Part shown: in pieces, positions 2,701-34,048 of the stretch | Layout: each line of letters starts with the position of its first letter | How positions within the stretch are numbered: the stretch's first letter is position 1 | Source of the DNA: Acidobacteriota bacterium | Lineage (GTDB): Bacteria > Acidobacteriota > Terriglobia > UBA7540 | Length of the DNA: 41,392 nucleotides | NCBI GenBank assembly: GCA_021827245.1 | Contig: JAKAWN010000007.1 | Span: 1 to 41,392 of the forward strand | Direction: 5' to 3' | Translations under genes and position numbers: made by a program | Notes under the pieces: model-generated | What the model was told of the DNA's origin: nothing | The model's database searches: none | Seen by the model: only the letters and a program-made list of their open reading frames with translations

Positions 2701-2760
2701 CGGATCCTCCCTCCTCAGCCGGCTCGTGCCCCAGGCGGGGAGCGCGAAACTGCCGGCTGG

Positions 2761-3402: not shown

Positions 3403-3424
3403 GTTTTCTCCATGCTTGCCGGTC

Positions 3425-5671: not shown

Positions 5672-5760
5672 CCGAGTCCTCAGGGAAGAGGCGTGCCTGC
5701 ACGCCACGAAGTTATCCCTTAACGACGCGTTCGTTTTCAAAGTCCGTGGGAGAGGTCGAG

Positions 5761-7059: not shown

Positions 7060-7068
7060 GGGAGCGCC

Positions 7069-8715
7069 ATGAAGCCGCCAAAGAATCCAATCATTTCCCA
7101 ACCCGCCCAAGGAGCGGATAGGAGTCCTCGCATGAAAAACTATCGCATCGCCTTTTTGGCGCTGCTGGGGGTTAACTTCGCGTTGTTCGCTGGCCTGGGC
7201 GCGTGGTGGTGGCAACGGCGCGCCGTGCGTGCCCAGGCTTCGACGCCGACCGCAACGGCCGTTGCATCCCGAGTTTCAGTCCAACCTACGGGCTCGGCTG
7301 GCGGGCAAGCCGCTTCGGCCGCGTTCGTGAGCCCGGCAGCGGCGCTGGCGCCTCTCCAGATCTCTCCACAGCGGCTTCAGAGCATCGGCGTCACAACCGG
7401 CACGGTCGAACGCAAGGTTATCCATGACGACATTCGCTTCGTCGGCAACGTAGCTGTAGACGAGCAAGAGCAGGCCTACGTCCAGACGCGGTTTTCCGGC
7501 TGGATTCAGCAGGTGTTCGCCAACGCCAAATATCAGTACGTAAAGAAGGGCCAGCCGCTCTTCACTGTTTATAGCCAGGACTTGGTGACCACGGAGCGCG
7601 AATACCTGCTGGCGAAACAGAACGAGCAGCTCTTGGCATCGAGCACGGTGCCCGACGTCGCTTCCGGCGCGAAATCGCTGGTCAGCGCAGCGCTCGAGCG
7701 GCTGCGGCAATGGAACCTCCCTGAGCACGAAATCGCCCGGCTGGAACGCACCGGCAAGGTCGAACAGTACCTCACCATCGATTCCCCCGCCTCCGGCTTC
7801 ATCACCGAGCGAAACGCCCTGCCGAACATGTATGTCGAGCCTGCGACGCGGCTCTATACCGTGGCTGGTTTCTCCCCCATTTGGGTGTATGCCGAAGTCT
7901 TCCAGAACGATCTGGGGCGCATTCGAGTTGGCGACCCGGCCACGCTCACTGTCGATTCCTATCCCGGCCGCACTTTTTACGGCCGCGTGGATTTCATCTA
8001 TCCCACCGTCGACGTTACCACGCGCACCGCCCGCGTTCGTCTCGTGTTTTCCAATCCCGGTTTGCTTTTGAGACCCGGCATGTTTGTGAACGTCGATTTG
8101 GAGATCCCCATGGGATGGCAATTGGTCGTGCCCGCCACAGCGGTCTTCCAGGCCGGAACCCAGCAGATCGCTTTCATCGATCGCGGCGACGGCTACCTGG
8201 AGCCACGCACGATCGTCGCTGGGCCGCAGGTCGGCAACAACTACATCGTGCTCAAAGGACTCAAGCCCGGTGAGCGTATCGTGACTTCGGCGAATTTCCT
8301 GATTGACTCCGAGAGCCAGTTGCAAGCCGCTATCGGATCCTTCCTCCCACCGCCAGCGCCCGTAACAAGCGGAGGCGCCGCGGTGCCTGCGGCGCAAAAC
8401 AACATCGAATTCAGCAGCATCCCCACGCCGCCACGCAAGGGCCCCAACTCCTTCCAAGTGAAACTCACCGATGCCAAAGCCCAGTCGGTTGCTGGCGCCC
8501 TGGTTCAGGTGACCTTCTTCACGCCTGGCATGCCCGATATGGGCATGCCGGGGCAGACCGTCCAATTCAACCTTACCGACAAAGGCAACGGCGTCTATGA
8601 AGGTTCCGGCAACCTGCCCTCAGGTGGGGACTGGCAAGTGACGATCGTGGCGCGCCAAGGCGGCCAAGTGATTGCGAACAAACAACTGAGCGTCAGCGCC
8701 GAAGGAGGGATGTGA
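7069..8715 (+). CDS. RND periplasmic adaptor (CusB-like) with C-terminal FixH/YtkA-like domain
   Basis: The 548-residue membrane fusion protein has an N-terminal anchor helix (IAFLALLGVNFALFAGLGAWWW). The ATG at 7132, which has AGGAG upstream, is an alternative start just before this helix. The core is a standard HlyD-type adaptor: FVGNVAVDEQEQAYV, then FSGWIQQVFANAKYQYVKKGQPLFTVYSQDLV (biotinyl-lipoyl half-motif and start of the hairpin), and the beta-barrel region RPGMFVNVDLEIPMG. The last ~95 residues form an extra domain like FixH/YtkA, containing FTPGMPDMGMPGQ, a Met-rich stretch that may bind Cu(I). It links the pump at 8717 to the outer membrane factor and probably passes copper to the pump. 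Confidence 0.9.
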   Translation: MKPPKNPIISQPAQGADRSPRMKNYRIAFLALLGVNFALFAGLGAWWWQRRAVRAQASTPTATAVASRVSVQPTGSAGGQAASAAFVSPAAALAPLQISPQRLQSIGVTTGTVERKVIHDDIRFVGNVAVDEQEQAYVQTRFSGWIQQVFANAKYQYVKKGQPLFTVYSQDLVTTEREYLLAKQNEQLLASSTVPDVASGAKSLVSAALERLRQWNLPEHEIARLERTGKVEQYLTIDSPASGFITERNALPNMYVEPATRLYTVAGFSPIWVYAEVFQNDLGRIRVGDPATLTVDSYPGRTFYGRVDFIYPTVDVTTRTARVRLVFSNPGLLLRPGMFVNVDLEIPMGWQLVVPATAVFQAGTQQIAFIDRGDGYLEPRTIVAGPQVGNNYIVLKGLKPGERIVTSANFLIDSESQLQAAIGSFLPPPAPVTSGGAAVPAAQNNIEFSSIPTPPRKGPNSFQVKLTDAKAQSVAGALVQVTFFTPGMPDMGMPGQTVQFNLTDKGNGVYEGSGNLPSGGDWQVTIVARQGGQVIANKQLSVSAEGGM

Positions 8716-8716
8716 C

Positions 8717-11700
8717 GTGATCGCGCGATGGATCGATTGGTGCAGCCGGAACCGTTTCCTGGTCTTCACGGGTGTTTTCCTGCTCGTGTTGGCGGGAATT
8801 TGGAGCATGGGCCATATTCCGCTCGACGCCCTGCCCGACATTTCCGACGTTCAGGTCATCATCCATACCAGTTGGCCCGGCGAACCGCCCAACATCATTG
8901 AAGACCAGGTGACCTATCCGATCGTCACAGCACTCCTGACTGCTCCTCAAGTAAAGGAAGTGCGAGCGCAGACAATGTTCGGCGACTCCTACGTCTACGT
9001 CATTTTTCAGGATGGAACGGACATCTACTGGGCGCGCTCGCGCGTGCTCGAGTACCTGCAACAGATCAAGGGCCGCATTCCGCCGGGCGTGAATCCCGAA
9101 ATCGGCCCCGACGCGACCGGTGCCGGCTGGGTCTACGAATATGTGCTGGTGGATCACACCCACAAGTACAGCCTCGCAGATTTGCGCACCCTCCAGGACT
9201 GGTATATTCGCTACTGGCTGGAAACGGTTCCCGGCGTTTCCGAAGTCGCGACCATCGGCGGTTTCGTCCGCCAGTTCCAGGTCAATCTCGATCCCAACAA
9301 GCTGCTGGCCTACAACATCCCGCTGCGCACCGTCATTGACCGCGTGCGCGAGAGCACCAACGAGGTCGGCGGCCGCCTGCTCGAATTTGGCGGTGCCGAA
9401 TACATGGTGCGCGGGCTCGGCTACTTCAAATCGCTCGACGATCTGCGCAACGTCCCAGTCGGCGTTTACAACGGCACGCCTATCCTCGTCAGCGATCTCG
9501 GAACAGTAACCTACGGACCGGACATCCGCCGCGGCGTCGCCGATTGGAACGGCGAAGGAGAGACGGTGGGCGGCATTGTCGTGATGCGATATGGACAGAA
9601 CGCGCTCAACGTCATCCATGGGATCAAAGCCAAGATCGCCGAGATGCAAGCGTCGCTGCCGCCTAGCGTTGAGATCGTCCCCGCCTACGACCGCGCGGGA
9701 TTAATCCACGAATCCATCAACACTCTGCAGCGGGACCTGCTCGAGGAATCGTTGATCGTCAGCCTTGTCATCATCCTTTTCCTGTTTCATTTCCGGTCGG
9801 CGCTGATTCCCATTCTCACCTTGCCCATCGCCGTCATCGCTTCGTTCATCCCTATGTACTACTTCCACGTCACGGCAAACATCATGTCGCTCGGAGGCAT
9901 CGCGCTAGCCATCGGTGTTCTCGTCGACGCCGCCATCGTCATGGTCGAAAACGGCTACCGTTGCCTTTCGGAGGCGCAGGCCGCCGCTTCTCCACCAACC
10001 GGGAAAGGAGCGGTCGATCCCCCGTCTGGGCCGGATCTTGCCTCCGCCGACCCTCCACCCTCCCTGGCCGATCCGCCCGTTGCCGAGGACGACCCGGCAG
10101 GTTCGTCCGTGGCGACACTCGAAGCGCAGCCTCCCACGCCAGCCGCGCCACCTCCAATCAGTAACCGCGAGCGGCAGCGGATTTTGCTCGGTGCCGCCAA
10201 GCAGGTCGGCGCGCCGATTTTCTTTTCCCTGATCATCATCATCGTTTCGTTCCTTCCCGTCTTTCTGCTCCAAGCCCAGGAAGGCCGCCTGTTCCGCCCC
10301 CTGGCCTGGACCAAGACGCTCGCCATTGGTTTCTCGTCTCTGCTTTCCATCACCCTGATCCCGATTCTCATGATCCTCTTCATTCGCGGCCATCTGAAAC
10401 CGGAATCCGCCAATCCCGTTTCGCGCTTCACGCAATGGCTCTACCTGCCGGTATTGCGCTTCTGCTTGCGCCATCGCCTCGCTACCCTGCTCGCTGGCCT
10501 TGCCTTCCTCGCCGCGACGATACCGCTGGCCGCGCGCATCGGGAGCCAGTTCATGCCGCCGTTTTACGAAGGCTCGGCCCTCTACATGCCAACCTCCTAT
10601 CCCGGGATCTCGATCACTCAGGCTTCCGATTTGATGCAGGAGCAGGACCGCATCATCCGCTCCTTCCCCGAAGTCAAAAGCGTCTTCGGCACCGTGGGCC
10701 GGTCGGACTCCGCCACCGATAACGCGGACCTCTCGATGTTCGATACTGCCGTCGTGCTAAAGCCACGCGAGCAATGGCCCAGGGGAATGACTTACGACAA
10801 ACTGATCCACGCGATGAATGCGAAACTGCAATTTCCAGGCATCACCAATGACTGGACCGCGCCGATCCAGAGCCGGTTGGACATGGAACTGACCGGGATC
10901 AAGACGCCGGTCGGCATGAAAATCCAGGCGCCCAACCTTGCCGACATCCAACAAGTCGGCGCTCAGGTGCAGCACCTTCTTTCGGGGCTGCCCGGCGTGC
11001 GCTCGGTTTTCGCGGAGCGTGTCTTGCAGGGCTTTTACGTGAACGTTGCAGTCAATCGGGCAGTGGCCGCGCGCTACGGGCTCACCGTTGCCGACGTGCA
11101 GCGCGCGGTAACCTCGGGCATTGGCGGCGAGGACGTCGCCACCAATATCGAGGGTCGCGAGCGCTACCCGATCAACGTGCGCTACAGCCGCGATTTTCGC
11201 GACAATATCCCGGCGCTCGAGCGCGTCTTGATCCCCACGCCCAGCGGCGCGCAAATCCCCGTCTCTGAAGTCGCCAGCATCACCTTCTCTCGCGGCCCCG
11301 CTTTGATCCGGGACGAGGACGCCCAACTCACCGGCTACGTCTATTTCGATCTAAGCACTAGCGATTACGGCGGTTTTGTCCAAAAAGCCACGAACCTGCT
11401 TCGCCAGAAACTGCAACTACCGCCCGGTGCCTCCTACCACTGGTCCGGTGAATATGAATTCGAGGTGCGGGCGCAAAAGCGGCTGGAACTGATTATGCCG
11501 ATCGTTTTCTTCGTCATCTTCGTCCTGCTCTACATGACCTTCAATTCCGCCACCGAGGCTGCCATCCTGATCCTACCGACCGCCTTCGCCCTTACAGGCG
11601 GGCTGCTCTTGCAATGGCTGCTCGGCTACAACTTCAGCGTGGCTGTTTGGGTGGGTTACATCGCTCTGTTCGGCATCGCCGTCGAAACCGGAGTGGTCAT

Positions 11701-12040
11701 GGTCGTGTACCTGCACGAGGCGCTCGACCGGCGCCTCGCCAGTGACGTCCCGGTCCAGCACGAGGAGATCGAAGCGGCCACGATCGAAGGAGCCGTCCAG
11801 CGTCTCCGGCCGAAGTTGATGACCGTTTTCGCCGTTTTGTTCAGCCTCGGGCCCATCCTCTGGGAAACCGGTGTCGGCTCGGATGTCATGAAACCGATCG
11901 CCACACCGATGGTCGGCGGCATGGTGACTTCAACGATCGGAGTCCTGCTACTGGTGCCGGTGCTCTTCTCGATGCTGAAGGAACGTCAGCTACGGCGCGG
12001 AACGCTCGTGCAGTCGGGCGCGAAGGCAGACGTGGATTAA
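8717..12040 (+). CDS. cusA: Heavy-metal efflux RND pump, Cu(I)/Ag(I) type (CusA-like)
   Basis: This is a 1107-residue inner membrane proton/metal antiporter. The start is GTG with GAAGGAGGGA just upstream, 1 bp after the adaptor stop. TM4 carries LAIGVLVDAAIVMVEN (397-412), the signature of the copper/silver HME subgroup. The three methionines that bind Cu(I) in E. coli CusA (573, 623, 672) have counterparts at Met624 (ALYMPTSYPG), Met674 (DLSMFDT) and Met723 (RLDMELTG), with identical 50- and 49-residue spacing. Unusual is a Pro/Ala/Asp-rich insert (about 416-482) in the loop between TM4 and the next helix, roughly 40 residues longer than in CusA. With the two preceding genes it makes a tripartite efflux complex. 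Confidence 0.95.
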   Translation: MIARWIDWCSRNRFLVFTGVFLLVLAGIWSMGHIPLDALPDISDVQVIIHTSWPGEPPNIIEDQVTYPIVTALLTAPQVKEVRAQTMFGDSYVYVIFQDGTDIYWARSRVLEYLQQIKGRIPPGVNPEIGPDATGAGWVYEYVLVDHTHKYSLADLRTLQDWYIRYWLETVPGVSEVATIGGFVRQFQVNLDPNKLLAYNIPLRTVIDRVRESTNEVGGRLLEFGGAEYMVRGLGYFKSLDDLRNVPVGVYNGTPILVSDLGTVTYGPDIRRGVADWNGEGETVGGIVVMRYGQNALNVIHGIKAKIAEMQASLPPSVEIVPAYDRAGLIHESINTLQRDLLEESLIVSLVIILFLFHFRSALIPILTLPIAVIASFIPMYYFHVTANIMSLGGIALAIGVLVDAAIVMVENGYRCLSEAQAAASPPTGKGAVDPPSGPDLASADPPPSLADPPVAEDDPAGSSVATLEAQPPTPAAPPPISNRERQRILLGAAKQVGAPIFFSLIIIIVSFLPVFLLQAQEGRLFRPLAWTKTLAIGFSSLLSITLIPILMILFIRGHLKPESANPVSRFTQWLYLPVLRFCLRHRLATLLAGLAFLAATIPLAARIGSQFMPPFYEGSALYMPTSYPGISITQASDLMQEQDRIIRSFPEVKSVFGTVGRSDSATDNADLSMFDTAVVLKPREQWPRGMTYDKLIHAMNAKLQFPGITNDWTAPIQSRLDMELTGIKTPVGMKIQAPNLADIQQVGAQVQHLLSGLPGVRSVFAERVLQGFYVNVAVNRAVAARYGLTVADVQRAVTSGIGGEDVATNIEGRERYPINVRYSRDFRDNIPALERVLIPTPSGAQIPVSEVASITFSRGPALIRDEDAQLTGYVYFDLSTSDYGGFVQKATNLLRQKLQLPPGASYHWSGEYEFEVRAQKRLELIMPIVFFVIFVLLYMTFNSATEAAILILPTAFALTGGLLLQWLLGYNFSVAVWVGYIALFGIAVETGVVMVVYLHEALDRRLASDVPVQHEEIEAATIEGAVQRLRPKLMTVFAVLFSLGPILWETGVGSDVMKPIATPMVGGMVTSTIGVLLLVPVLFSMLKERQLRRGTLVQSGAKADVD

Positions 12041-22554: not shown

Positions 22555-22663
22555 CTTTCAGTCCCCTCTTCATCGGGGAGTTCTCTTCAACAAACAATTA
22601 AACTTTGCATAGACGCATGGTTACACCTTTCAGTCCCCTCTTCATCGGGGAGTTCTCTTCAAC
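22555..22663 (-). CRISPR. Minimal CRISPR array: two identical 37-bp repeats and one 35-bp spacer
   Basis: Identical 37-bp repeats lie at 22555-22591 and 22627-22663, separated by a 35-bp spacer (22592-22626). Read on the minus strand, the direction of the cas genes, the repeat begins GTTGAAGAGAAC and ends GGGGACTGAAAG. It can form a hairpin with stem TCCCC/GGGGA and an 8-nt loop. Cutting at the stem base by Cas6 would leave the 8-nt handle ACTGAAAG. The spacer is AT-rich (12 of 35 bases G/C) in a GC-rich region, so it probably derives from foreign DNA. The array follows directly after cas4. Confidence 0.9.
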
Positions 22664-22828: not shown

Positions 22829-23467
22829 TCAGAAGATATCGCCACAATAGTTTCTAAACTCGCATTCTTCGCACCGGGCACGCACCGGTGTGGGTTCCGG
22901 CAGCATTGCCTCTTGGATCAGCTGCCGGATACTGGCGAGTTGTTCATGGATGAGCGCCTTCAGCCGATCAGTGACGTTGATTCGGATCAGCTGGTCGCTG
23001 GGCGTCAGATAAACGAACGCCAACGGTGCCGGCATCTTCATCGCATCTTCGACCAGCACAGCGTAGGCCGCAAGCTGCATAACGTGATTCCGCCTGGGCC
23101 GTCCACGCGTGTATTTGAAATCGACAGGATAGCACGCTTCGGGCGTGACGATCAGCAGATCAAGTTTACCGCTCAGCGCGAGAAAAGGTGAGTTGAGCCA
23201 GACATGAAAGCGGCGCTCACCTTCGCTCAATCGGTATCGGCGTAGCGTGCGCCGCGCTTCCAGGGCATCAAGCTTGACTTCGACCTCCTTGCCCCGATCC
23301 ATCTTGACCGTGCTCTTCCGAGCCACCGGCATGACCGTGTTGTAAAACACAATCCGCGGGCAATATTCGAACTGCTTGAGATCATTCACACGGAGTGGGA
23401 TCAGCTCAGAAGGCGGATCTCCAGTGGCCGTTGAAAGTGCGGCGCCGCTTATCGCGCTCGGCTCCAT
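22829..23467 (-). CDS. cas4: Cas4 exonuclease of the CRISPR adaptation module
   Basis: The product has 212 residues. RecB-like nuclease motifs are visible: GKLDLLIV, then YPVDFKYTRG (the D...DxK core) and QLAAYAVLVEDA (QxxxY-type motif). Iron-sulfur cluster cysteines occur at FEYCPRIVF near the N-terminus and as CEECEFRNYC at the C-terminus. Cas4 trims prespacers and selects those with a proper PAM before Cas1-Cas2 integrates them. It lies 74 bp after cas2 and next to the array, in the same orientation. Confidence 0.92.
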   Translation of the reverse strand: MEPSAISGAALSTATGDPPSELIPLRVNDLKQFEYCPRIVFYNTVMPVARKSTVKMDRGKEVEVKLDALEARRTLRRYRLSEGERRFHVWLNSPFLALSGKLDLLIVTPEACYPVDFKYTRGRPRRNHVMQLAAYAVLVEDAMKMPAPLAFVYLTPSDQLIRINVTDRLKALIHEQLASIRQLIQEAMLPEPTPVRARCEECEFRNYCGDIF

Positions 23468-23541
23468 CGTCAGCCTCGGGCAACCCTCATTCTCATCTCG
23501 AAATCAAAGCCCGTCTAAACAAAACTGGCAACAAAACAGTA

Positions 23542-23946
23542 TTATTCAGCGTGACCGGAGTTTTCTTTGCGCTCCCGCGCCAGATCCTTCGGGACATCCG
23601 CAAAGAGATAGGCATAAAGGGCCGCTTTCACGTCTTTCTCACACAGCGGCTGGATCATGATTTTGAACGCTGGTTGCCAGCGGCCATTGGCCTCGTCTTC
23701 GGGAGGGACTGGCATGTCCATAGGCTTGGTCTGGACCTCTGGGAAGTCTCGATGCCAGCGAGCCTGCCAATCCCGTTGAATCTGGCGCAGGCGCTCATGG
23801 AGTTCCTCGCGCTTGTTTTGCGACAGCGTTCCTCGGAAACAGCTAAACTGCAAGCGCTCCAGACCGAAATCCTTGCAGGCGTCCGCCACGCGCGTCCTCG
23901 CTCGATCGTCTTCGATATCGTAGATGACCAGGGTGCTCAGTTCCAT
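23542..23946 (-). CDS. cas2: Cas2, CRISPR integration complex subunit
   Basis: This 134-residue protein opens with LVIYDIEDDRARTRVADACK, the ferredoxin-like beta1 strand with the conserved Asp of Cas2, and then RLQFSCFRGTLSQNKREELH. It is longer than the usual 90-100 residues: a middle segment (about 60-90, WHRDFPEVQTKPMDMPVPPE) and a charged tail extend the fold. Cas2 forms the dimer that bridges two Cas1 dimers. It follows cas1 by 78 bp. Confidence 0.9.
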   Translation of the reverse strand: MELSTLVIYDIEDDRARTRVADACKDFGLERLQFSCFRGTLSQNKREELHERLRQIQRDWQARWHRDFPEVQTKPMDMPVPPEDEANGRWQPAFKIMIQPLCEKDVKAALYAYLFADVPKDLARERKENSGHAE

Positions 23947-24024
23947 AAAAGCAGCCTACGCTTGGCGTTCCCTTCGCGAGCCGGTGACATTTGAGTGCAA
24001 AGACTTGGCTCAGCAGGCCGTCAC

Positions 24025-25386
24025 CTACCACCGAAACGAGAATGGCTTGTACTTGGCCTTCCCGCGCAGGAAGCTGACGAGCGCCCGCGCCTGCATCTGG
24101 ATAATCGACCGAATCTGGAACTGCTGTCCGCGAAATGGTTCCGGGCTCGCGAGCCGTTCGAGCACTTTCTCAGCGATTGCTTTCCGCGTATCTGCGTCGA
24201 GCAAACCCTCCTTCATTTCCGCTTTCTGGCCCAAGTTGATGAACGCGATCACGGTCCGGTCCACAACAGGCTGGCGGAACTCCTCCACCAGATCGAGCAC
24301 CAAGGAAGGCTTGCCTGGCCGGTCGACATGTAAGAATCCTGCGAACGGTTCAAGGCCGGCGTTCGCGACGGCACCCCAAACATGGCCATAGAGAATCCCA
24401 TAGCCGTAATTGAGCAGAGCGTTCAGGGGATCATCGGCGCCCCGGTGGACGCGACCCATAAACTCCGCTTTGTCCTCGACGATCACCTTAAATCCCTGCC
24501 AATAGAGCCGTCCCGCCACGCCTTCCAGGCCCAGCAGTTCCTGGCGCTTTTCGGCGACCGTTGAGCCAGCAATTTTTCGTGCTTGAAGTTCGAGCTGACG
24601 TAGCTGCTTCGCAAGCCCGACGACAACGTCGTAGCGTTCGGGATTCGACTGCTTTAGATATTTGCCGCAGTACAGGAGGAGATGCCGCTGATTACGAATC
24701 TTACCCCGGACGACGGCCCGCGCGAATTCTAGCCCGCGGGCGTCGTCAAAAGCCTTCAATTGTTCGCGGCGCGATTCCACCGTCGCCGTGAGCGTTGGTG
24801 AGGTGAGCATGGCGTAAGGCCGGCCTGCGTAGTCCAGGAAACTCAGTCGGATCCCGCGCTCGCAGAATTCCTCGAGAAGGTCCGAGGAGAAGGAAACGCC
24901 CCGTGACGCGATTACGACCTCGCTCAACCGGAACATGGGGAATTCGTAGGTCGAGCCGTTTCCGTCCTTCGCCAGCTTCCCAGCCACTTTGATTTGGAGC
25001 CGCTCGCTCTTCTTGCCGAGATAAATGCCGTAGCCTGAAAGAATTACCTGAGCCAAGTCCTCTGTCTTGGCTACCCGGGGCTTGTCAGGAACGAATGGCT
25101 TGCGGCCGAAAACCAAGGGTTGAATTTGTGCCCCGTTCCCGGCACCGCCCCGCTCTGATCCGATAACGGGAAAACTGAGCGTGATCCCTTCTTCCACGAC
25201 GATTTCCTTGCCGGCCCTGTTTTCTGGCAAAACCATGCCCCATTCGGGATCGAACAGCCAGCCTGATTCGGGTGCCTCTCCATCCTGGGCCCGTATTGGC
25301 TCCAATTCACCCGTGAACAGATTCCACTGACCGCCAGCTTCTTCAGTCTGAAGGGTCGGTTGGCCATTGAGAGAGGAAGCGCTCAT
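24025..25386 (-). CDS. cas1: Cas1 integrase with an unusual ~110-residue N-terminal extension
   Basis: I start at the ATG at 25386 (453 residues); a GTG 19 codons upstream is also possible. The Cas1 fold begins near residue 111 (AQVILSGYGIYLGKKSERLQ). Catalytic residues fit Glu288 in LLGLEGVAGRLYWQGF, His353 in AGFLHVDRPGKPS and Glu368 in LVLDLVEEFRQP. The first ~110 residues (NGQPTLQTEEAGGQWNLFTG, then WLFDPEWGMVLPENR) match neither Cas4, Cas2, Cas6 nor reverse transcriptase, all of which are known Cas1 fusion partners. Cas1 usually has about 300-350 residues. It heads the adaptation genes, 335 bp after cas5. Confidence 0.93.
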   Translation of the reverse strand: MSASSLNGQPTLQTEEAGGQWNLFTGELEPIRAQDGEAPESGWLFDPEWGMVLPENRAGKEIVVEEGITLSFPVIGSERGGAGNGAQIQPLVFGRKPFVPDKPRVAKTEDLAQVILSGYGIYLGKKSERLQIKVAGKLAKDGNGSTYEFPMFRLSEVVIASRGVSFSSDLLEEFCERGIRLSFLDYAGRPYAMLTSPTLTATVESRREQLKAFDDARGLEFARAVVRGKIRNQRHLLLYCGKYLKQSNPERYDVVVGLAKQLRQLELQARKIAGSTVAEKRQELLGLEGVAGRLYWQGFKVIVEDKAEFMGRVHRGADDPLNALLNYGYGILYGHVWGAVANAGLEPFAGFLHVDRPGKPSLVLDLVEEFRQPVVDRTVIAFINLGQKAEMKEGLLDADTRKAIAEKVLERLASPEPFRGQQFQIRSIIQMQARALVSFLRGKAKYKPFSFRW

Positions 25387-25721
25387 GTTTGTAGCTCGTG
25401 CCGCTGCAGGCTCGCGGCAGGGAATCACGCAATTTTCGCGCACCTGATGAGGAATCGCCGGGAAAACGCGCGAACCGTTTCCAAAGTATGCAACTCCCGG
25501 TCGGACGCGTTTGCCCTGCGGTTCGTGAATCTAGGCAGCGAAGTCCGCAGCAGATCGCCGCTCTCTGACGGCACCCGACCCTGCACAGTTGGCGACCGGC
25601 CCCCTAACGCATTCGAGCCCCCTTTGGCGAGGGAGGGCGGGCCGCTCGTCTGGGGTGCTCTTGGGAACTCCTGTGTTGGCACTCCGGAGGGCAGTTTGCA
25701 TTCGGATTGGATATCGCAATC
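25387..25721 (-). other. Gap between interference and adaptation modules
   Basis: These 335 bp hold no convincing gene. All other cas genes lie within 80 bp of each other or overlap, so this gap probably contains a promoter for cas1-cas2-cas4, and perhaps the end of the interference transcript. I could not choose reliable promoter boxes by eye. Confidence 0.45.
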
Positions 25722-26555
25722 TTATGCTTTTCCCGCTGAAATCCGATCCCACAATTGGTGGGATACGCCAACGGACCGACCACCTGTGAACCCCGAAAAG
25801 ATTGAAACACCACGCCTGAACTTCAAGCCCTCATCCCAAACAGAAGGCATGATGTCCCATTCTATTTGTTTATTGCTCAGCATGCGAGAGCGAACCGGCA
25901 CGTAGTGGACAAGTGCTTGTCCTGGCAGAAATGTTCGCTGGGGCAGGCTTCCAATTTCCGTCGCCAACATCAGGGCAAGCGTTTCCTCACGGCCAGTGGC
26001 GCTATCAGACTTTAGTTCCAGGATCTCCGGATCAGGAGCATACTCTAGTTGGATGCTACCCTTTTTGGCGAGAGGCCCTAGCCGTCCGCGGACGGCGCCG
26101 TGCAGCGCAAGCAGTTTGGACCGCTCCCTTGAAGCAATTACCAATACAAGCACGTCTGTCAGTACCTCCTCAACGACGGCCAATTTCTTACCTTCGTTTC
26201 GTCCCGCAGACCAGACTGTAGCCTCGTAGTTGAAGATTGAACCAAGATGACCGCGGAAGTGGCGCCGGGAGATTTGCCACTGAACAGGGTATGCTCCCAG
26301 CGCGAAGGTCCCGTGGTAATCCGGCAGGTCCTCAAGTCGCCGGGCATCCAAGCCAAGGGAATTGCTTTCATACCAACGCGTTTTTCCGAGAAGCCCCGCT
26401 AGGCAGCCCGATGCCCCCGTTGGCGGCAAGAACGGATAGCTGGACCACGTGACGTTAGACTTCAATGCGTTTCGCGCCATCAGCGGCGTGAGAGCGGTTC
26501 CTCGAAGCAGGAGGACGAACAGCTTGTCGCTATTCACTTCTGCCAGCCGCGTCAT
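25722..26555 (-). CDS. cas5: Cas5-type RAMP subunit (Csc1-like position)
   Basis: I start at the ATG at 26555 (277 residues), with GGAGGA 11 nt upstream. The frame is open to 26648 but would then overlap cas7 more deeply. The N-terminal part (LFVLLLRGTALTPLMARNA, then SSYPFLPPTGASGCLAGLLG) is like the first ferredoxin-like strand and following helix of Cas5 proteins. The C-terminal FRRGVSIFSGFTGGR resembles a glycine-rich loop. Cas5 caps the 5' handle end of crRNA in Cascade. It overlaps the cas7 end by 26 bp. Its position after the Csc2-like cas7 is that of csc1 in type I-D, but I do not see a clear Csc1 signature. Confidence 0.72.
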   Translation of the reverse strand: MTRLAEVNSDKLFVLLLRGTALTPLMARNALKSNVTWSSYPFLPPTGASGCLAGLLGKTRWYESNSLGLDARRLEDLPDYHGTFALGAYPVQWQISRRHFRGHLGSIFNYEATVWSAGRNEGKKLAVVEEVLTDVLVLVIASRERSKLLALHGAVRGRLGPLAKKGSIQLEYAPDPEILELKSDSATGREETLALMLATEIGSLPQRTFLPGQALVHYVPVRSRMLSNKQIEWDIMPSVWDEGLKFRRGVSIFSGFTGGRSVGVSHQLWDRISAGKA

Positions 26556-27762
26556 CTGGGGCGCCTTCCTCCGGATTTGTGCCCGGATCTGGCGGGGTAG
26601 CGCCGGTCGACTCCTTACTCGGTTCCTTCTTCTGAATCGCGGCCACATATGCGCTGAGCTCTTCGCTCAGCTGACCCCTCCACTCGGGGTCCGCAAGCGT
26701 CTTTTGGAACTCGATCTGCCTTTGCCGAAGGTAGCCCAAGGCTTGGTTGCCGTAATAACGCTTCATCAGCTCATCAGAGCCTTGCCGCACGATTAGGAAA
26801 TTCTCGGCAGCCTCAACAATCAGCTCGGTGCTTCCAGCCCTCGCGGTGAGTGTCTTTGTGTTGCCTTCTACCGCAAAGCCCTGAGCCTGCAAGGTGGACT
26901 GAACACCCACGAGCGACGGCGAACTGGAGTGGTGCGAAGCGAACAGGGCCGCCACTTTGGCGTAGTCTGTTTCCCATGCAGGCACCTTTGGTACCGACAG
27001 GGGGAACACGCCGGTGGGTGACTCGTCAACGATCAGTACCGGGTCTCCATCGTTCTCCGCGAACCGGATGCCCCCTTGGCCACGGGACGCTGCTGTGTAA
27101 CGATTCTGGTTTATACCTTCCAAAAGCGCGTGGGCGAAGGCACCGATTTCCCAGTCAAGAACGTGTAGGAGCGAAGTATATATGGGAAAGTGCGTCCCCG
27201 CGACAATCACCTCTTCCTCATGGATGCCGGCAGCTCCAGCAGTTGTTTGTGATTTTTCGTCGACTTGGTTGCGCGAGTGCCGACTGACACAACGGGCGAC
27301 TCCCTCAAGGGAAACCGATGTACTGTAGAGCACCCGCGACTTGGCATTGATCCTCTTCACAAGGCTTTCTCGCTCTTGCGTCGTGCCCGTGAAGCCGTAC
27401 AGCCAACAAATTGGACACATTCCGCATAGCTCCGGAATATAGCACTTCTCATTCCAACCCGATCGATCGCGTAATTCATGTATTGTTCGCCGGTCGACAC
27501 CACGCCGCTTGGTTCCTGCCCATATCGCCTTCTCTACGCTCTTTCCGTCGGGTGCCAGAACGGCGTCCTTTTCGGTTATGGTCGTGGCGATATCCGTGCC
27601 GTCGCCAAATCGCACATGGCCTGTGACCTCTAGCAAAGCACTTACAACGACGGTCTTGGAAATGGGTGCGTTGACGCCCGTGTACTGCGTTGTGCGCAGA
27701 CTGTCACCAGTCTTCGTGACCCGCGGTGTTGCGGAGTTATCCTTTTTCTGTTTCGACGGCAT
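26530..27762 (-). CDS. cas7: Cas7 backbone subunit, Csc2-like
   Basis: The product has 410 residues and starts after GGGAGGTCAGGA. The RAMP strand SALLEVTGHVRFGDGTDIAT is followed by a loop with RRGVDRRTIHELRDRSGW and a Cys cluster around residue 107-119 (CGMCPICWLYGFTG). That cluster, close to an YG(F/S) motif, resembles the Cys motif of type I-D Csc2. Another typical feature is the later LEGINQNRYTAASRGQGG. The last ~25 residues (from KEPSKESTG) are a polar acidic tail probably absent from the folded core. Multiple copies should form the helical backbone along the crRNA. Confidence 0.8.
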   Translation of the reverse strand: MPSKQKKDNSATPRVTKTGDSLRTTQYTGVNAPISKTVVVSALLEVTGHVRFGDGTDIATTITEKDAVLAPDGKSVEKAIWAGTKRRGVDRRTIHELRDRSGWNEKCYIPELCGMCPICWLYGFTGTTQERESLVKRINAKSRVLYSTSVSLEGVARCVSRHSRNQVDEKSQTTAGAAGIHEEEVIVAGTHFPIYTSLLHVLDWEIGAFAHALLEGINQNRYTAASRGQGGIRFAENDGDPVLIVDESPTGVFPLSVPKVPAWETDYAKVAALFASHHSSSPSLVGVQSTLQAQGFAVEGNTKTLTARAGSTELIVEAAENFLIVRQGSDELMKRYYGNQALGYLRQRQIEFQKTLADPEWRGQLSEELSAYVAAIQKKEPSKESTGATPPDPGTNPEEGAPDDAAGRSE

Positions 27763-27778: not shown

Positions 27779-28390
27779 TTATGAACGCGCCCTGCGAGTA
27801 TTGATCAGAAGAAGCGCAAGGGTTCTGGCTTGGACCTCATCGAGAAACTTACCCCAAGGCCCCGTGTCCTTGCCGTGTGTCTGATGCAAGGAGGCTAGAC
27901 GAGACTCTAGCTCGGTCTTTGGATTGCTCTTGCGAAAAGTTTCCCAGGCATCTCGTATCGCGGAGATGGCCTCATTCCGTTTCAGCTCGGCTTCCTTCAA
28001 AACTTGCTGTGCGGAGGCTCGATCTGAATCCGTCGCATCCTTTAGCTGCTTTTCAGCCGCGTCGTAAGCATTGTCACACCGTTTCAGCTCATCCTGCGCA
28101 TTCGCAATTGCCGTGTCGTCTTTTGCGCCTGGATTGAGGACATCAAAGACCTGCCGTTTGCACCACCGGTCGTCCTGGCTCTCCGCCTGGTCAGCCTCTT
28201 GGCACACGACATAAAGAAACTTCGCTGCCCGGCAGTCCACGAAATCGCGGGCAATGACGTCGGTATACTTTCGGGCGATGCCAGAGACAGCAGACCCACT
28301 CTTGCGGACCTCCCTTTCAACCAGTGGCCGCACAAGATCGAGCAGATAATTAGAAAAGCTGATCACATCATCATAGACGTTGCAATCCAT
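27779..28390 (-). CDS. Predicted internally translated small subunit (Cas11-like)
   Basis: Within the large-subunit gene an ATG at 28390 is in frame (codon 501) and is preceded by AGGAGG (28398-28403) at the ideal 7-nt spacing. Translation from it would give 203 residues, identical to the large subunit's C-terminus. This part is mostly helical, with a long coiled-coil-like stretch (DELKRCDNAYDAAEKQLKDA, then RASAQQVLKEAELKRNEAIS), as expected of a Cas11-type helical bundle. In type I-B, I-C and I-D systems Cas11 is known to be made in this way from inside the large-subunit gene. The call rests on the ribosome site and fold character, not on expression data. Confidence 0.55.
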   Translation of the reverse strand: MDCNVYDDVISFSNYLLDLVRPLVEREVRKSGSAVSGIARKYTDVIARDFVDCRAAKFLYVVCQEADQAESQDDRWCKRQVFDVLNPGAKDDTAIANAQDELKRCDNAYDAAEKQLKDATDSDRASAQQVLKEAELKRNEAISAIRDAWETFRKSNPKTELESRLASLHQTHGKDTGPWGKFLDEVQARTLALLLINTRRARS

Positions 28391-29890
28391 TCTCGGGCCT
28401 CCTAACGCGTAAGCCATTTTGGCCGCGTACGCGGTGTTTCCGATGAACTCGCGCTCAAAATTCCGAACGCCCCGCGGTAGAATGTCGCGTTCGAAACCGA
28501 ACCCCTTTTCAGGTTGCCGAGCTTGGGTGGCGAGGTATAAGGCGGCAAAGGGGCGTCCCTCCACGATGGTGCGGGTCATGCCTTGAGCGGTGATCTTCCG
28601 GTCTCCCGTTTCGTAGTATGCCGGCAAGTGAGCGAAATAAGAGAGCCCAACGGCAACGTGAGGGTGGATCTCTGACCAGAAATTCGGCTGGCTCCCTTCC
28701 ACTTGGACCCGCATCGGACGGTCAAGGCGCCTGAGCAGCGGCTCATGGTTCCGCAGTTGCATGTACACTTGAGTCTTGGAATCCATCTGCCCGTGTTTCG
28801 CGGACTTTGACAGGAGCAGATACCGACTGGGCACAACCGAGAGCGAAGCCGTTCGGTTGATGAGCTTGAGGGCCACCAGCCCCGAAACACCCTGGAGGTG
28901 TTCATGAAGAGCAAATACTTCTAGAAAGTTATCTGCGGGCAGCTCCAAAACGCTCATTTCGTTGGAGGGAACTATGCCCGACAGCAATCCAATGTAAGCA
29001 CAATTCGCGCAGAGGCTTGGGAACTTGTCTCTGGGCCCAGGTTGCTCGTACCATTGCTTCTTATTCTCCGGGAGAAAGAACTTTCCACCTTGGATTAACT
29101 CACCGTGCTGGCCGCAGATTAGGCACGAGGCGCCGGTCTTGATGTTACCCGCAGCACCGCCCTGCTTTGCAGGGCCGTCGAGGCGGACGAAGCTCAAGGG
29201 CGCAGGCGAAGACGTGGATATGTCGTGTGTAGTCGTGAATTGCAGTTTCTCTGCCTTGGATTGAGCCTGGAAAAGTTTCGGGTGCGCTGCGACGGAGATC
29301 CGGAGCGCAGCCTCTATTTCCGTGCCTTTCCATGCCGCCGGGAGTTCAATGGCACCTATCGCTCTTCCGCGCCGCAACGCCGAGAACGTTGCCTTGATTC
29401 CATCCTCAATCGCAGTTCGCGCAAGATCGGAGGCTTGGAAGCTTTGCCATATCTCCTGCGCGTCAGTGGAAACTGCATCTGATGGAGTTCTTATTGCTGA
29501 CAGCATCGCCATCCCCTCAACTACCTGAAGTGGGATAACGGCGTGACGTTTATATAGATATTTGAGAAGAAGGCCGGTAAACACACCGTAGGCGATGCGC
29601 ATTCGAGGCTCGACTGGCACCGGAACAGATAGCAGGTGCGTCGCAGGTGGAAAGTCAAGAAGCCGCTCGAAGCGGGTCGTCGGCGTCGACTCTGACGCGT
29701 AGCGGACATAAAATCCATCGTCGTCGCAAGCAAACAGCCCCGCAGCCCGAAGCAGGTTCCTGAAGTCCTGTTCGGCGTGTTGGCCGAGGTGGGGCTTCAA
29801 AGTGCCCGCGGCGCGGACCGCCTCTTGAGGCGTTTCCGTGTTAGCTAGCAAAGCCCAAATAATCTTCTGAATGCTCTCCTGCGGTGTCAT
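27779..29890 (-). CDS. CRISPR large subunit with zinc finger, without HD domain (Cas10d/Cas8-like)
   Basis: The protein has 703 residues. A four-Cys zinc finger is formed by CLIC (256-259) and CANC (294-297), followed by AYIGLLSGIVP. Both Cas10d and several Cas8 proteins have a zinc finger here. I see no HD motif at the N-terminus and no GGDD-type cyclase motif, so a Cas10 palm, if present, is inactive. The C-terminal ~200 residues are helical and may also be made separately. The ATG overlaps the HD nuclease stop as ATGA (29887-29890). Gene order and the Csc2-like Cas7 favour Cas10d. Its length is near the size expected for a Cas10d that lacks the HD part. The role is PAM recognition and R-loop formation in Cascade. 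Confidence 0.7.
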   Translation of the reverse strand: MTPQESIQKIIWALLANTETPQEAVRAAGTLKPHLGQHAEQDFRNLLRAAGLFACDDDGFYVRYASESTPTTRFERLLDFPPATHLLSVPVPVEPRMRIAYGVFTGLLLKYLYKRHAVIPLQVVEGMAMLSAIRTPSDAVSTDAQEIWQSFQASDLARTAIEDGIKATFSALRRGRAIGAIELPAAWKGTEIEAALRISVAAHPKLFQAQSKAEKLQFTTTHDISTSSPAPLSFVRLDGPAKQGGAAGNIKTGASCLICGQHGELIQGGKFFLPENKKQWYEQPGPRDKFPSLCANCAYIGLLSGIVPSNEMSVLELPADNFLEVFALHEHLQGVSGLVALKLINRTASLSVVPSRYLLLSKSAKHGQMDSKTQVYMQLRNHEPLLRRLDRPMRVQVEGSQPNFWSEIHPHVAVGLSYFAHLPAYYETGDRKITAQGMTRTIVEGRPFAALYLATQARQPEKGFGFERDILPRGVRNFEREFIGNTAYAAKMAYALGGPRMDCNVYDDVISFSNYLLDLVRPLVEREVRKSGSAVSGIARKYTDVIARDFVDCRAAKFLYVVCQEADQAESQDDRWCKRQVFDVLNPGAKDDTAIANAQDELKRCDNAYDAAEKQLKDATDSDRASAQQVLKEAELKRNEAISAIRDAWETFRKSNPKTELESRLASLHQTHGKDTGPWGKFLDEVQARTLALLLINTRRARS
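28391..28403 (-). promoter_or_regulatory. Internal ribosome binding site in the large-subunit gene
   Basis: The minus strand reads AGGAGG, then CCCGAGA, then ATG. The site is encoded within codons for Leu-Gly-Gly-Pro-Arg-Met. It is stronger than the ribosome sites in front of several of the cas genes themselves, which argues against chance. Confidence 0.6.
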
Positions 29891-30846
29891 CGCCTTGTGC
29901 GCCTCCGAGACCCCTCCCTGCCGACAGAGCTTTTCCCGGTCTGCTGACGGACTTCCTCAGCCAAACGCTTCAGGTCCCAATCCACTCTCACAGGATGGTA
30001 TCGAACCACCAGCTCCTTGACGAGGGGTCCGGATTGTTCGGCAGGGAGCCGATCCCGCTCCAGCCGGACCGTGCCCACTCTAAGGCCGTTCCACTCTTCT
30101 TCTGGCTTCGGTTCGGCGGATGCACTCACGCTCACGTCGCCAAAGAAATCCTCGCGATCGGGCTGCTCAGATCCTTCTTCCAGATACTGCACCACATACT
30201 CGGCCCACCGAGAACCTGCGTGATCGGCTACGATTAGCCGGTACAAGTCTCTGACCAGTTCATCTCCGTATTGTGCGCAAGCGCTAATGACACGATCTGG
30301 TTGGAAGGAATGGTGCAAACGGATGAGGTTGAGAATGTATTCTCGGCTCTGCGGGTCCTCTTGCAAATCGACGGCGCCATCCCGGTACGGAAGCAGGTCA
30401 TCCTCGTTAACCTCGGCGGCGTGATTGCCGAAGGGCGCATCAAGGTCCACCCGGAAATCCTGCGCGTCCACGGTGGGCCAGAGACGACGATGAGACCCTG
30501 ACTGAACGAAGGCCAAGTAGCGTTCTGCGGCGCCGGCCGGGGAGAGCCCTGTCCCGGAGTCACTTGGGGCATAAAAATCTCTACGCAGCTTGTCGGGACC
30601 GATCTTGAGCCCCTTAATGAACTCCGACCGCGCTCCGACCTTTTTTCCTATGTCATGGAGTCTGGCAGCGGCTCGCTGTCTGCCGCCAACACCTGGCCAG
30701 AGCCATTCCAGCATTGCGACGACATGGCCGATGTGCTCCTCAACCGATATGAGGACCAACTGGCTCACAACTCCCGGGTCTTCTTGGCTCCTAACCTGAA
30801 TGATCTTGCCAGGTACAAACAGCGCCGGATTGGCGTTAGGTATCAC
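29887..30846 (-). CDS. Stand-alone HD nuclease (Cas3''-like)
   Basis: This 319-residue protein has metal-binding motifs of Cas3-type HD nucleases: His38/His41 in EEHIGHV, the core ARLHDIGKK with His64-Asp65, His178-His179 in IRLHHSF, and Asp208-His209 in VADHAGS. These ligands should bind two metals and degrade single-stranded DNA. The start is GTG and overlaps the helicase stop as GTGA; its own stop overlaps the large subunit start. In type I-D this domain is fused to the N-terminus of Cas10d, while here it is a gene of its own in just that position. The C-terminal ~90 residues (from about 225) are acidic and then basic, and look like an added tail. Confidence 0.85.
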   Translation of the reverse strand: MIPNANPALFVPGKIIQVRSQEDPGVVSQLVLISVEEHIGHVVAMLEWLWPGVGGRQRAAARLHDIGKKVGARSEFIKGLKIGPDKLRRDFYAPSDSGTGLSPAGAAERYLAFVQSGSHRRLWPTVDAQDFRVDLDAPFGNHAAEVNEDDLLPYRDGAVDLQEDPQSREYILNLIRLHHSFQPDRVISACAQYGDELVRDLYRLIVADHAGSRWAEYVVQYLEEGSEQPDREDFFGDVSVSASAEPKPEEEWNGLRVGTVRLERDRLPAEQSGPLVKELVVRYHPVRVDWDLKRLAEEVRQQTGKSSVGREGSRRRTRR

Positions 30847-32828
30847 CTTTGGTTCTCCTCGGCGGGCTCAAACCAGTAGACGGGAAGCTCAGTCTCGGCC
30901 GAATCCTTGTACAGAATCGTCCCGAAGGTGCGAAGAACGGATTCGTTTGGAGAACGGGTGTAGCCTGGCCACCTCGCTCTTTCAGCCTGCGTCTTGGCCC
31001 ATTCATTCCTCGCCCGCTTGTGGTAAACAAGGCCCACGTCCTCGCTGGGGAGTATTCTCTGGCGGATCCCGGCCACATCTGGCACGACCAAAATGAGGGG
31101 AAGGTCAAGCCCGTAGACAGCCTGAACCTTGTTATCCTGATTCTGTGTTTGAGCGCGTGGCCTGAGTCCTGCGAACCGTAATGCCTCAATCAGTGTTCGC
31201 TCTCTTGAGCCTCCAACCGCAATGCGCTGTGTATATTGATTGCCTTCGTTATACCCTTCGAAGACCCATGCGCAGGAGGGAGCTATGTGCGCCGCGCCGG
31301 AGATTGGCACGAGGAGTTTTTCCTTGATCTCCTTTCCTCGCCAAAAGTCACGCGCCGGAATCCCGCCTATGTGGTCCCCTCCCCGACCCTTCTCCCAGCG
31401 CACCAATGGAATCGACGGTTCCCAGTCACGGGTGATCACAACCCCTTTCTCCCACAGTTCCCAATTCTCTTGTACAAAGTCGTAGACATATCGGTACAAG
31501 CTTACGTCTTGGAGGTACTCCAGTCGCAGGGGGACATCTTTCAGATCGGGGACGCGATTCAGCTCGTTCAAGTCCTCCTTCACTTGAGCGTCCAGTGGAC
31601 CTCCCGGTTGTCGTTGCTGCATGAGCTGCCAAAGCGGCTTGGTAGCCTCGGAAATTCTGTCTCCGTTGGGATTTATCAGGTATATTTCACCGGTTTCTCC
31701 CATACGTCTAGCACAGCGGCCCACCCGTTGGATGAAGCTATCCGGCTCGCAAAGATCGGTGATCATCACGTCGCACGAGATATCTACGCCGACCTCCATC
31801 GCAGACGTTGTCAGAAGCACAAACGGCTGCCGGTGCTCCGGCTGGCCATCAGGCTTCCATGGATTATCAAGTGCTTTAAGCCGTCCAAGAACGCGCAACC
31901 GATATGTTGGCATTTGGTGGCCGTGGTATGTGAGGACATTCCCGGTAACGGCGTCGCCATTCAATGAAGCGGTAGTCGTCAGCGAAGCTCTCTCGGGGTC
32001 ACGGGCACGGGCCCCGTCACTAAACTGTTTCCATAGCCCGTGAAGCGAAATGTCATCCAGAGAGTGGGCCAAACCCGAAGGTACTACTCTTCTTGTCACC
32101 ACAATGACGCGTTTACCCTGGTCAAAGAAATCGAAAGACCTGTTGACGACATCCGAAGCCGCGACTAGACCTCCGTAAACGAGAGCCCCGCTCTTGTTCT
32201 CATGATCCTCAACTTTGTCGAAAAACTTGCCTTCATCCTTGCCTCGTGGAAAGTGTTCGTGGCTCGGGTCCTCCAACGCCTCTTTGAGCGAAGGAGGTAG
32301 CGTTGCGGAAAGAAGGACGGTCTGGACGCGACGTTCATATGTGAGCTTTTTCAGCAGAAACCAGAGATGCGAAAACGCCACCTCTTCATAAGCGTGGGCT
32401 TCATCGAGAATCAGAATCGCCTTCCGGTCGTGGGCGAACCCAATCCGGTAAGGGTAAAGATAACTCCATCGCTTCTTTCCATAGCCAAAAAGCCGATACA
32501 GGAATTTATCTAAATTGGTCAAAATCACATCACTGTGATAAAAACGTTGGTCGTCCGCGTCGCCAGTGTCAATAGCTATGGTCCTTCCGACGGCAAGACC
32601 CTTCACGCGTTCGTGCTGGTCTTGAAGAAGGGCTTTGGTCGGATACAAGACCAAGATTCGTTTGCCGGTTTCCAGGGCAGGTAGCAGCGCAGCCTCAGTC
32701 TTGCCGCTGCCCGTACCGGCGAAAATAAGAGTATTCTTACCGGCCAAAATGCTTGCCCACGCGCTTTCCTGGAATGCGCGCGGTGTATTAATACCCGCGC
32801 GTAAGTAAGCTTCATGGATGTCAATCAT
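30843..32828 (-). CDS. cas3: Cas3' helicase without HD domain
   Basis: The protein has 661 residues of superfamily 2 helicase. Motifs in order: Walker A AGTGSGKTEA (37-46), VLYPTKALLQDQ (Ia), DEAH in LILDEAHAYEEV (142-145), SAT in VLLSATLPPS (174-176), and motif VI QRVGRCARR (367-375), with STSAMEVGVDIS-like motif V before it. No nuclease domain is present; the HD part is the next gene, overlapping as GTGA. It should unwind the target strand for degradation after Cascade binding. It lies 32 bp after cas6. The C-terminal ~130 residues, including a Cys-containing insert, may contact Cascade. Confidence 0.92.
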   Translation of the reverse strand: MIDIHEAYLRAGINTPRAFQESAWASILAGKNTLIFAGTGSGKTEAALLPALETGKRILVLYPTKALLQDQHERVKGLAVGRTIAIDTGDADDQRFYHSDVILTNLDKFLYRLFGYGKKRWSYLYPYRIGFAHDRKAILILDEAHAYEEVAFSHLWFLLKKLTYERRVQTVLLSATLPPSLKEALEDPSHEHFPRGKDEGKFFDKVEDHENKSGALVYGGLVAASDVVNRSFDFFDQGKRVIVVTRRVVPSGLAHSLDDISLHGLWKQFSDGARARDPERASLTTTASLNGDAVTGNVLTYHGHQMPTYRLRVLGRLKALDNPWKPDGQPEHRQPFVLLTTSAMEVGVDISCDVMITDLCEPDSFIQRVGRCARRMGETGEIYLINPNGDRISEATKPLWQLMQQRQPGGPLDAQVKEDLNELNRVPDLKDVPLRLEYLQDVSLYRYVYDFVQENWELWEKGVVITRDWEPSIPLVRWEKGRGGDHIGGIPARDFWRGKEIKEKLLVPISGAAHIAPSCAWVFEGYNEGNQYTQRIAVGGSRERTLIEALRFAGLRPRAQTQNQDNKVQAVYGLDLPLILVVPDVAGIRQRILPSEDVGLVYHKRARNEWAKTQAERARWPGYTRSPNESVLRTFGTILYKDSAETELPVYWFEPAEENQR

Positions 32829-32860: not shown

Positions 32861-34048
32861 TTATCCGTGCACTTGGTAGTGCCCGTTGCCCCAGGCAGTG
32901 TGTTTGCCAACATGGACGAATTCACCCACAGTGAGCCACGGCAAAAATTCGCTCACTTCGCCCCCGTAGGTAGCCTCGCCCACGAAGCCGGAAAGCTCGT
33001 GGCGCTGGCGGGTCTTGGAGGACGTGCGAAAGCGTTCGACCCAGTCGGTCTGAGCGGAGACGGTTCGAACTCTCTCGGCACGTTCCCCGAGCCCACGAAA
33101 ATCCTCCTCCATTGGGCCCTCGCCAAAGAACGTGCTGAGTGCATTTATGCGGTCGCGCAGGCGCTTGAAGACATGGTGGAATTCCGGGCGGCGTATTACT
33201 TCGCCATCGGCACGGAGAAACGTCGGTGTCAGAAATCGGATCGTAATTCGTTGTGTTGGCCCGCGGCCGTTTGAGTCGCGAAGCTCTTGCAGGCGGGCAC
33301 TGATCCATCCTTGAGATCCGACGCTGGCGGGCGCGCGAAACAACTTATCGGCCGACGTGTATACGACGTGCGGGGACCCTGCCGCCGTGAAAGGCTGCGC
33401 TATTCCCTTAGGGCGCGGGGACCGCGCTCCTACGAACGGGTGCGGCGTTGCTTCGGCTGCTGATGCCGGCTGGGAAGCCGGCGGTAGGACTGCCAGTGCC
33501 GACGTGAGGGGCGGCGCTACATCCGGCGCCGGGTGGCTCGCGTCGTTTGAGGAGACACCGGTCTGCTGGACTTGTTCCAGCGTGCATCTGGCGCGATTCA
33601 GCCCCAGCCCCTCGCTTGCAAGCTCCCGAAACGACAGAACGAAGTAAGGCAGAAAATCGAGGGCCCGGCCAATGAGGACTAGGCCGAACTCGAACCGCTG
33701 GCCCCTCTCGAACCGTGTCTGCTGCGTGAGCGGCGCTCGAAAGACAAATGGGCGCGGGATGTCCTGATTCTTCGAAAGCCGCTCTGAGCCGGGCGGCGGT
33801 GAGGGTTCAAAAACCGCCTTGTATGGGCAGGAAGCGGCCAGCGGGCAGGATTTCGTGTCCCTACATTGCGGGATACAGCAGAGCCGCCGGAAGGCATGGC
33901 CGAAGCCGCCGCGAAGCATATTGCCCTTGTTTACGGCGGGCACTTGCAGCGCTTCCTGGGGCTCGATTGTGAAACGAAAAAGGCCAATCGGAAGGTTAAG
34001 TGCAATCAGATCGTCGGCCATGGCCAGACCGTAAAAACGGTTTCCCAT
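32861..34048 (-). CDS. cas6: Cas6 crRNA-processing endoribonuclease with an in-frame palindromic insert
   Basis: This 395-residue protein is the first gene of the cas operon. The ATG at 34021 (MADDLIAL) is an equally good start; neither has a clear ribosome site. Cas6-family marks: LRGGFGHAFRRLCCIPQC, a Cys group (C57, C58, C62, C68, C74) with CPYKAVFEP, IPRPFVFRAP, and the C-terminal RAMP loop HVGKHTAWGNGHYQV. It should cut the repeat transcript at the hairpin base. Residues about 165-232 are Pro/Ala-rich and fit no fold; they are encoded by DNA with two short perfect palindromes (33413-33427 and 33465-33482), apparently an inserted repeat that kept the frame. It is longer than most Cas6 proteins, partly for this reason. 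Confidence 0.85.
   Translation of the reverse strand: MGNRFYGLAMADDLIALNLPIGLFRFTIEPQEALQVPAVNKGNMLRGGFGHAFRRLCCIPQCRDTKSCPLAASCPYKAVFEPSPPPGSERLSKNQDIPRPFVFRAPLTQQTRFERGQRFEFGLVLIGRALDFLPYFVLSFRELASEGLGLNRARCTLEQVQQTGVSSNDASHPAPDVAPPLTSALAVLPPASQPASAAEATPHPFVGARSPRPKGIAQPFTAAGSPHVVYTSADKLFRAPASVGSQGWISARLQELRDSNGRGPTQRITIRFLTPTFLRADGEVIRRPEFHHVFKRLRDRINALSTFFGEGPMEEDFRGLGERAERVRTVSAQTDWVERFRTSSKTRQRHELSGFVGEATYGGEVSEFLPWLTVGEFVHVGKHTAWGNGHYQVHG
33353..33556. repeat. Palindrome-containing insert within cas6
   Basis: This part of cas6 holds GCGCGG/CCGCGC around GGA (33413-33427) and GCCGGCT/AGCCGGC around GGGA (33465-33482). It translates to low-complexity Pro/Ala sequence. The structure resembles dispersed REP-like intergenic repeats more than coding sequence. 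Boundaries are estimates from where Cas6-like sequence stops and resumes. Confidence 0.5.

Follow-up and report, generated by a model that had tools for sequence, protein, structure and literature searches.

The CRISPR-Cas locus described here raises the question of whether its large-subunit gene encodes one protein or two. The locus lies in a stretch of 41,392 nucleotides from an Acidobacteriota bacterium (contig JAKAWN010000007.1), the whole of which we refer to as the window. Its large-subunit gene (27779..29890, minus strand, 703 residues) contains an internal Shine–Dalgarno (SD) sequence, AGGAGG, at 28403-28398, followed by a 7-nt spacer and an in-frame ATG whose first base is 28390. On the minus strand the letters across the site read GCG TTA GGA GGC CCG AGA ATG GAT TGC AAC, with the SD (28398..28403) spanning Leu496 (TTA), Gly497 (GGA) and Gly498 (GGC), and the ATG (28388..28390) forming codon 501 of 703; 203 codons remain before the stop ending at 27779. 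The initial annotation had proposed that this arrangement yields a helical C-terminal protein of 203 residues, a Cas11 small subunit. The sequence bears out the arrangement, the model of the product is helical, and it is very likely that the gene also makes a translated Cas11 from Met501 (predicted cas11 ORF, 27779..28390, minus strand).

The host system is unusual. Its genes form a compact operon on the minus strand in the order cas6 (32861..34048; Pfam PF10040, 5.3e-19), cas3' helicase (30843..32828; PADLOC Cas3d PDLC01196, 1.4e-199), HD nuclease (cas3'', 29887..30846), large subunit (PADLOC Cas8b PDLC01203, 3.3e-63), cas7 (26530..27762), cas5 (25722..26648; PADLOC Cas5b PDLC01198, 1.9e-59) and an adaptation block (22829..25443) of cas1 (24025-25443), cas2 (23542-23946) and cas4 (22829-23467), all three identified by Pfam, NCBIfam and PADLOC profile searches. 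The ATG of cas5 at 26648 sits inside cas7, and the true cas5 start may lie downstream of it. Cas7 is of the Csc2 type found in type I-D, matching Pfam PF18320 (9.6e-9; 35.3 bits, cut-off 25.5) as well as PADLOC Cas7b and Cas7d, and scoring 36.9 bits against NCBIfam TIGR03157, below the cut-off of 38. Just downstream of cas4 are two identical 37-nt direct repeats (22555-22591 and 22627-22663) separated by a 35-nt spacer, and this pair (22555-22663) is probably a minimal CRISPR array.

The HD nuclease is free-standing and has a 4-nt overlap with each of its neighbors, cas3' and the large-subunit gene. It matches no Pfam, NCBIfam or PADLOC family at E 1e-3 and is recognized by its signature residues: H38, H64-D65, H142, H178-H179 and D208 are invariant in three aligned orthologues, and we take them to be the HD-nuclease ligands. 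The signature is common to the window and to related loci from Poribacteria (L001) and Rubrobacter radiotolerans (L005), and is seen in a related Anaerolineae locus (L002) as well. The gene order cas3'-HD-large subunit-cas7-cas5 is identical in all three relatives.

By profile, the system would be called type I-B, as its large subunit and Cas5 match Cas8b and Cas5b profiles. This label seems to be based on the lineage itself, because the R. radiotolerans proteins match those same profiles over their full length (1643.7 bits over positions 1-688 of 688 and 485.9 bits over 1-254 of 254). Type I-B systems usually carry the Cas3 helicase and the HD nuclease on a single protein; here the two activities are encoded by two genes (30843-32828 and 29887-30846). 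The I-D trait of an HD domain fused to the large subunit is likewise absent, the HD signature residing in the separate gene at 29887-30846, and the large subunit has no PADLOC Cas10d match and an hhalign probability against Cas10d of 0.3. What sets the system apart is the combination of a Csc2-like Cas7, a free-standing HD gene and a large subunit without detectable Cas10d sequence similarity. In the main text of the 2025 classification (PMC12669027) the terms 'Rubrobacter' and 'internal' are absent, and the literature searched yielded no experimental work on this rare type I lineage.

The locus had also been said to lack a separate small-subunit gene, and we see none between the effector genes of the window or of the Poribacteria and Anaerolineae loci. 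The cas genes leave little room between them; the larger gap, at 25444-25721, holds minus-strand ORFs of just 85 and 73 residues, and is spanned by a 181-residue plus-strand ORF with a TTG start that runs into both neighbors.

To place the internal site in context, we counted motifs in 28 long ORFs selected by script, 38,820 coding nt of the window in total, and computed SD energies, as pairing with the 16S tail, for a set of 25 genes made up of these ORFs minus four doubtful ones, plus cas2. AGGAGG located 5-9 nt ahead of an in-frame ATG, GTG or TTG occurs once in the 28 ORFs, at codon 501, and the looser GGAGG under the same spacing rule occurs at three sites. The SD energy of codon 501, -10.2 kcal/mol, ranks first of the 29 internal in-frame start codons of the large-subunit gene; the next best is codon 129 (-8.4), and all others are no better than -3.9. 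Of the nine cas ORF starts, eight have a weaker SD than this site and only that of cas7 (-11.0) is stronger; those of cas6, cas3', cas5 and cas1 reach just -2.1. Elsewhere in the 25 genes, 3 of 641 internal in-frame start codons equal or beat it. Judged on the window alone, the site is rare and notable, neither unique nor proven. Among the 28 ORFs TTA accounts for 2.1% of Leu codons and GGA for 20% of Gly codons, and a GGA opens 14 of the 59 Gly-Gly pairs in the 25-gene set. In mRNA accessibility the site is unremarkable: 43% of codons are equally open.

The internal codon coincides with a domain boundary. When the large subunit is modeled with AlphaFold2 (mean pLDDT 86.4), Met501 lies in a loop between helices 486-497 and 505-531, and the C-terminus that follows is all-helical; folded alone, the 203-residue part reaches a mean pLDDT of 93.1. 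A Foldseek search of the PDB with the large subunit returns as its top match 7sba_I, the Cas10d of a type I-D Cascade (E 6.1e-3, probability 0.96, TM-score 0.31), which is the sole CRISPR entry among the 50 matches listed. A second fold search with the large subunit was discarded, as unrelated helical and coiled-coil chains fill the matches listed. The Cas11 model also finds unrelated chains of this kind, mostly through hairpin residues 88-157, with no Cas11 chain among the matches listed; two Cas12m2 entries occur among the unrelated chains in these searches and were not used. A PDB sequence search with the alignments A1 and A3 described below gave no meaningful match, and the C-terminal part of the window protein matches no PADLOC family at E 1e-3.

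Several other features of the large subunit were observed. The Cys pairs C256/C259 and C294/C297 are invariant, from which we infer zinc binding. The coiled-coil hairpin (27920-28129; large-subunit residues 588-657, about 88-157 of the predicted Cas11) holds an insert of about 40 residues that is common to just a few relatives. Homologues of about 900 residues have an additional segment, roughly 240-265 residues long, near residues 224-240 (29171-29221), which is missing from the window protein and the other homologues of 650-710 residues.

A search for the DNA of relatives returned two loci from genome contigs and one plasmid record, and no related locus in viral contigs (two scans) or phages. 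The genome searches, whose sets overlap, met only the two genomes of these loci: Poribacteria 1 of 84, the Anaerolineae class 1 of 298, the Chloroflexota phylum 1 of 400 and the order 1 of 400. DNA comparison accordingly covers two fused relatives, from Poribacteria and Anaerolineae, and one split relative, from Rubrobacter. In Poribacteria the site reads GCG GGA GGT ATT TCT ATG, with GGAGG 7 nt ahead of the ATG; there is no A before the GGAGG, and the GCG ahead of the glycines gives GGGAGG. In Anaerolineae it reads TTA GGA GGT GAA ATC GTG, with AGGAGG kept 7 nt ahead of a GTG that encodes the Val at position 501, and this AGGAGG makes use of the rare TTA (3.7% of Leu codons). The SD at the aligned codon is the strongest of all internal in-frame ATG, GTG and TTG codons in both genes, first of 52 in Poribacteria and first of 57 in Anaerolineae; since the window itself nominated the position, the independent part of this rank evidence is about 1 in 52 x 57. 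The initial annotation had tied its proposal to homologues keeping both AGGAGG and the Met, which stands in part: Anaerolineae keeps the AGGAGG and has a GTG-coded Val in place of Met, while Poribacteria keeps the Met and has GGGAGG in place of AGGAGG. The conserved unit is an SD plus a start codon, which fits an internal start.

The same unit can be followed at the protein level. A homologue search over 5.8 billion proteins yielded 73 sequences including the window's own, and 75 when the alignment was used as the query; alignment A1 holds 68 of them, the window protein and 67 homologues. Gly497-Gly498 is invariant (68/68), the runner-up aligned Gly pairs reaching 40/68, within the insert of the long forms, and 31/68. 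Residue 501 is Met in 41 sequences, Val in 25 and Leu in 2, so that in place of a strictly conserved Met all 68 carry M, V or L behind the Gly pair. The three residues are those encoded by ATG, GTG and TTG or CTG. When the states of this column are mapped on a quick IQ-TREE tree that leaves the column out, six changes are needed. Outside A1, the site is covered by four more proteins (P0026, P0027, P0072 and P0075), which also have Gly-Gly plus M or V.

The pattern might instead have a purely structural cause. If the full-length large subunit is the sole product of the gene, the glycines of Gly-Gly-x-x-[MVL] could serve as a flexible hinge and its last residue as a hydrophobic one buried where the first C-terminal-domain helix begins, with the SD as a by-product of the codons; the motif does lie at the domain boundary in the model, and Gly-Gly suits a hinge. 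Ile ought to be tolerated at a buried hydrophobic position, but 0 of 68 sequences have it. Fifty alignment columns of the window protein have Val at 20-80%, five of these lack Ile, and among those five column 501 alone is limited to M, V and L. Codon choice also argues against a hinge: the first Gly is GGA in all three genes compared, where GGA makes up 16-33% of Gly codons (33% in Poribacteria, 16% in Anaerolineae). In alignment A3 of the C-terminal part, all 13 fused rows spanning the site have M, V or L, and 9 of the 13 have Gly-Gly; the other four, the Rubrobacter-like fused proteins P0088, P0089, P0091 and P0092, have Lys-Gly or Glu-Gly before M, V or L, residues able to encode a purine-rich SD. 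These proteins would thus keep a possible SD without the Gly-Gly that a hinge calls for. Taken together, we consider a hinge with no second product unlikely, and one gene very probably specifies two proteins, a large subunit and a small helical subunit, because distant relatives retain the internal start signal.

A search with the C-terminal alignment returned 20 proteins, six of which start exactly at the site (P0077, P0078, P0085, P0086, P0087 and P0090); P0085, P0077 and P0090 match no PADLOC family at E 1. Some of these stand-alone C-terminal proteins may reflect the choice of a gene caller, since, the Rubrobacter plasmid aside, five sit on short contigs of 865 to 2723 bases. The complete R. 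radiotolerans plasmid (NZ_CP007515.1) carries an orthologous large-subunit gene (5351-7417) in the same gene order as the window. Unlike the window gene, it stops early, and the annotation gives two genes that overlap in different frames, the second (7362-7811) encoding the C-terminal part as a homologue of the predicted Cas11. The second ATG of this ORF aligns gap-free with Met501 and has AAGGAG 5 nt upstream. We do not treat the split as decisive, because the frame change adjoins an A6 run and the four Rubrobacter-like fused proteins align across the break. A frameshift introduced in sequencing may account for it, as may a slippage site or a mutation that arose recently. The R. radiotolerans large subunit also differs from the window's in having about 170 more residues ahead of the Cys motif. 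Its effector operon spans 2555-11897 of the plasmid record and includes a gene for a CARF protein (9716-10945), placed between cas5 and cas6.

A C-terminal fragment could also arise by proteolysis at loop 498-504, which joins two helical parts in the model, and a Cas8b fragment was at first ascribed to fragmentation in work on a type I-B system (PMC11899642). Cleavage would leave the start-codon residues, the SD codons and the separate Rubrobacter ORF unexplained, and we regard it as highly improbable. Equally improbable is that the real start is another nearby internal codon with codon 501 unused; Met492 is just nine codons upstream, but apart from codon 129 no other internal SD beats the -3.9 given above, and column 501 is M, V or L throughout.

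An internally started Cas11 in the window would be of a kind already known. The idea that the C-terminus of the large subunit hides the small subunit in type I systems dates from 2011 (PMC3150331). As the initial annotation noted, Cas11 made by internal translation has been reported for types I-B, I-C and I-D (PMC11899642, PMC10212523), and such translation is stated for about 23% of known CRISPR-Cas systems (PMC9123187). The window system would add a new case to this group. As a control, the same scan was run on Synechocystis cas10d, where it lists Met830 behind AAGGA; the last 146 residues of that protein correspond to PDB chain 7sba_J, 'Cas11d'. The SD energy at Met830 is -5.4 and ranks just 8th of 46, compared with -10.2 at the window site, and because this proven start ranks so low, SD strength is neither necessary nor decisive.

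The Synechocystis I-D system resembles that of the window in having a small helical subunit from an internal in-frame start at the 3' end of the large-subunit gene (7sba_J; PMC9123187), a Csc2-type Cas7 and a separate cas3' helicase. It differs in that HD is fused to Cas10d there and is a separate gene in the window, and the two large subunits share no sequence-profile similarity, although Synechocystis Cas10d is the top, if weak, structural match. Cas11b of Haloferax volcanii starts at Met545 of cas8b, likewise in the 3' third of the large-subunit gene, behind an SD-like GGATG where the window has AGGAGG; a bacterial I-B internal Cas11b is also cited in the same source (PMC11899642). Unlike these I-B systems, the window has a Csc2-like Cas7, and its cas3' and cas3'' are separate genes.

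Under the dual-product reading, ribosomes starting at 29890 would make the 703-residue large subunit, and those binding the AGGAGG would start at Met501 and make the 203-residue Cas11, identical to the C-terminal helical domain. Copies of Cas11 would then line the Cas7 filament beside the Cas11-like C-terminus of the single large subunit, where they may stabilize binding of the target DNA, a role in which Cas11d of type I-D has been shown to act (PMC9123187, PMC10212523). We infer translation in the cell, incorporation into the complex and the DNA-binding role.

One review proposes an origin of the other type I systems from I-D in which cas3' took over the HD domain of the large subunit (PMC10212523). 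It is tempting, if rather doubtful, to see the present operon as a surviving intermediate on this path, with its embedded cas11 just separating in Rubrobacter. The HD nuclease might have left the large subunit to become a free gene beside cas3', not yet fused to it; the large subunit might have shrunk until its Cas10d sequence similarity was no longer detectable; and the Csc2-type Cas7 might have been retained, together with a Cas11 still embedded behind its own start. We put this forward as a hypothesis only, because a split cas3'/cas3'' occurs in type I-A too. If it is true, the Rubrobacter sub-lineage would directly show the origin of separate cas11 genes.

Gly-Gly-x-x-[MVL] at a domain joint offers a protein-level signature for embedded starts where only protein sequences exist. 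In reconstituting this Cascade, or transferring it to eukaryotic cells, one would probably have to provide cas11 on its own, as has been reported for examples of types I-B, I-C and I-D (PMC10212523). For the rare type I lineage to which the window belongs, our analysis predicts a subunit that has gone unannotated.
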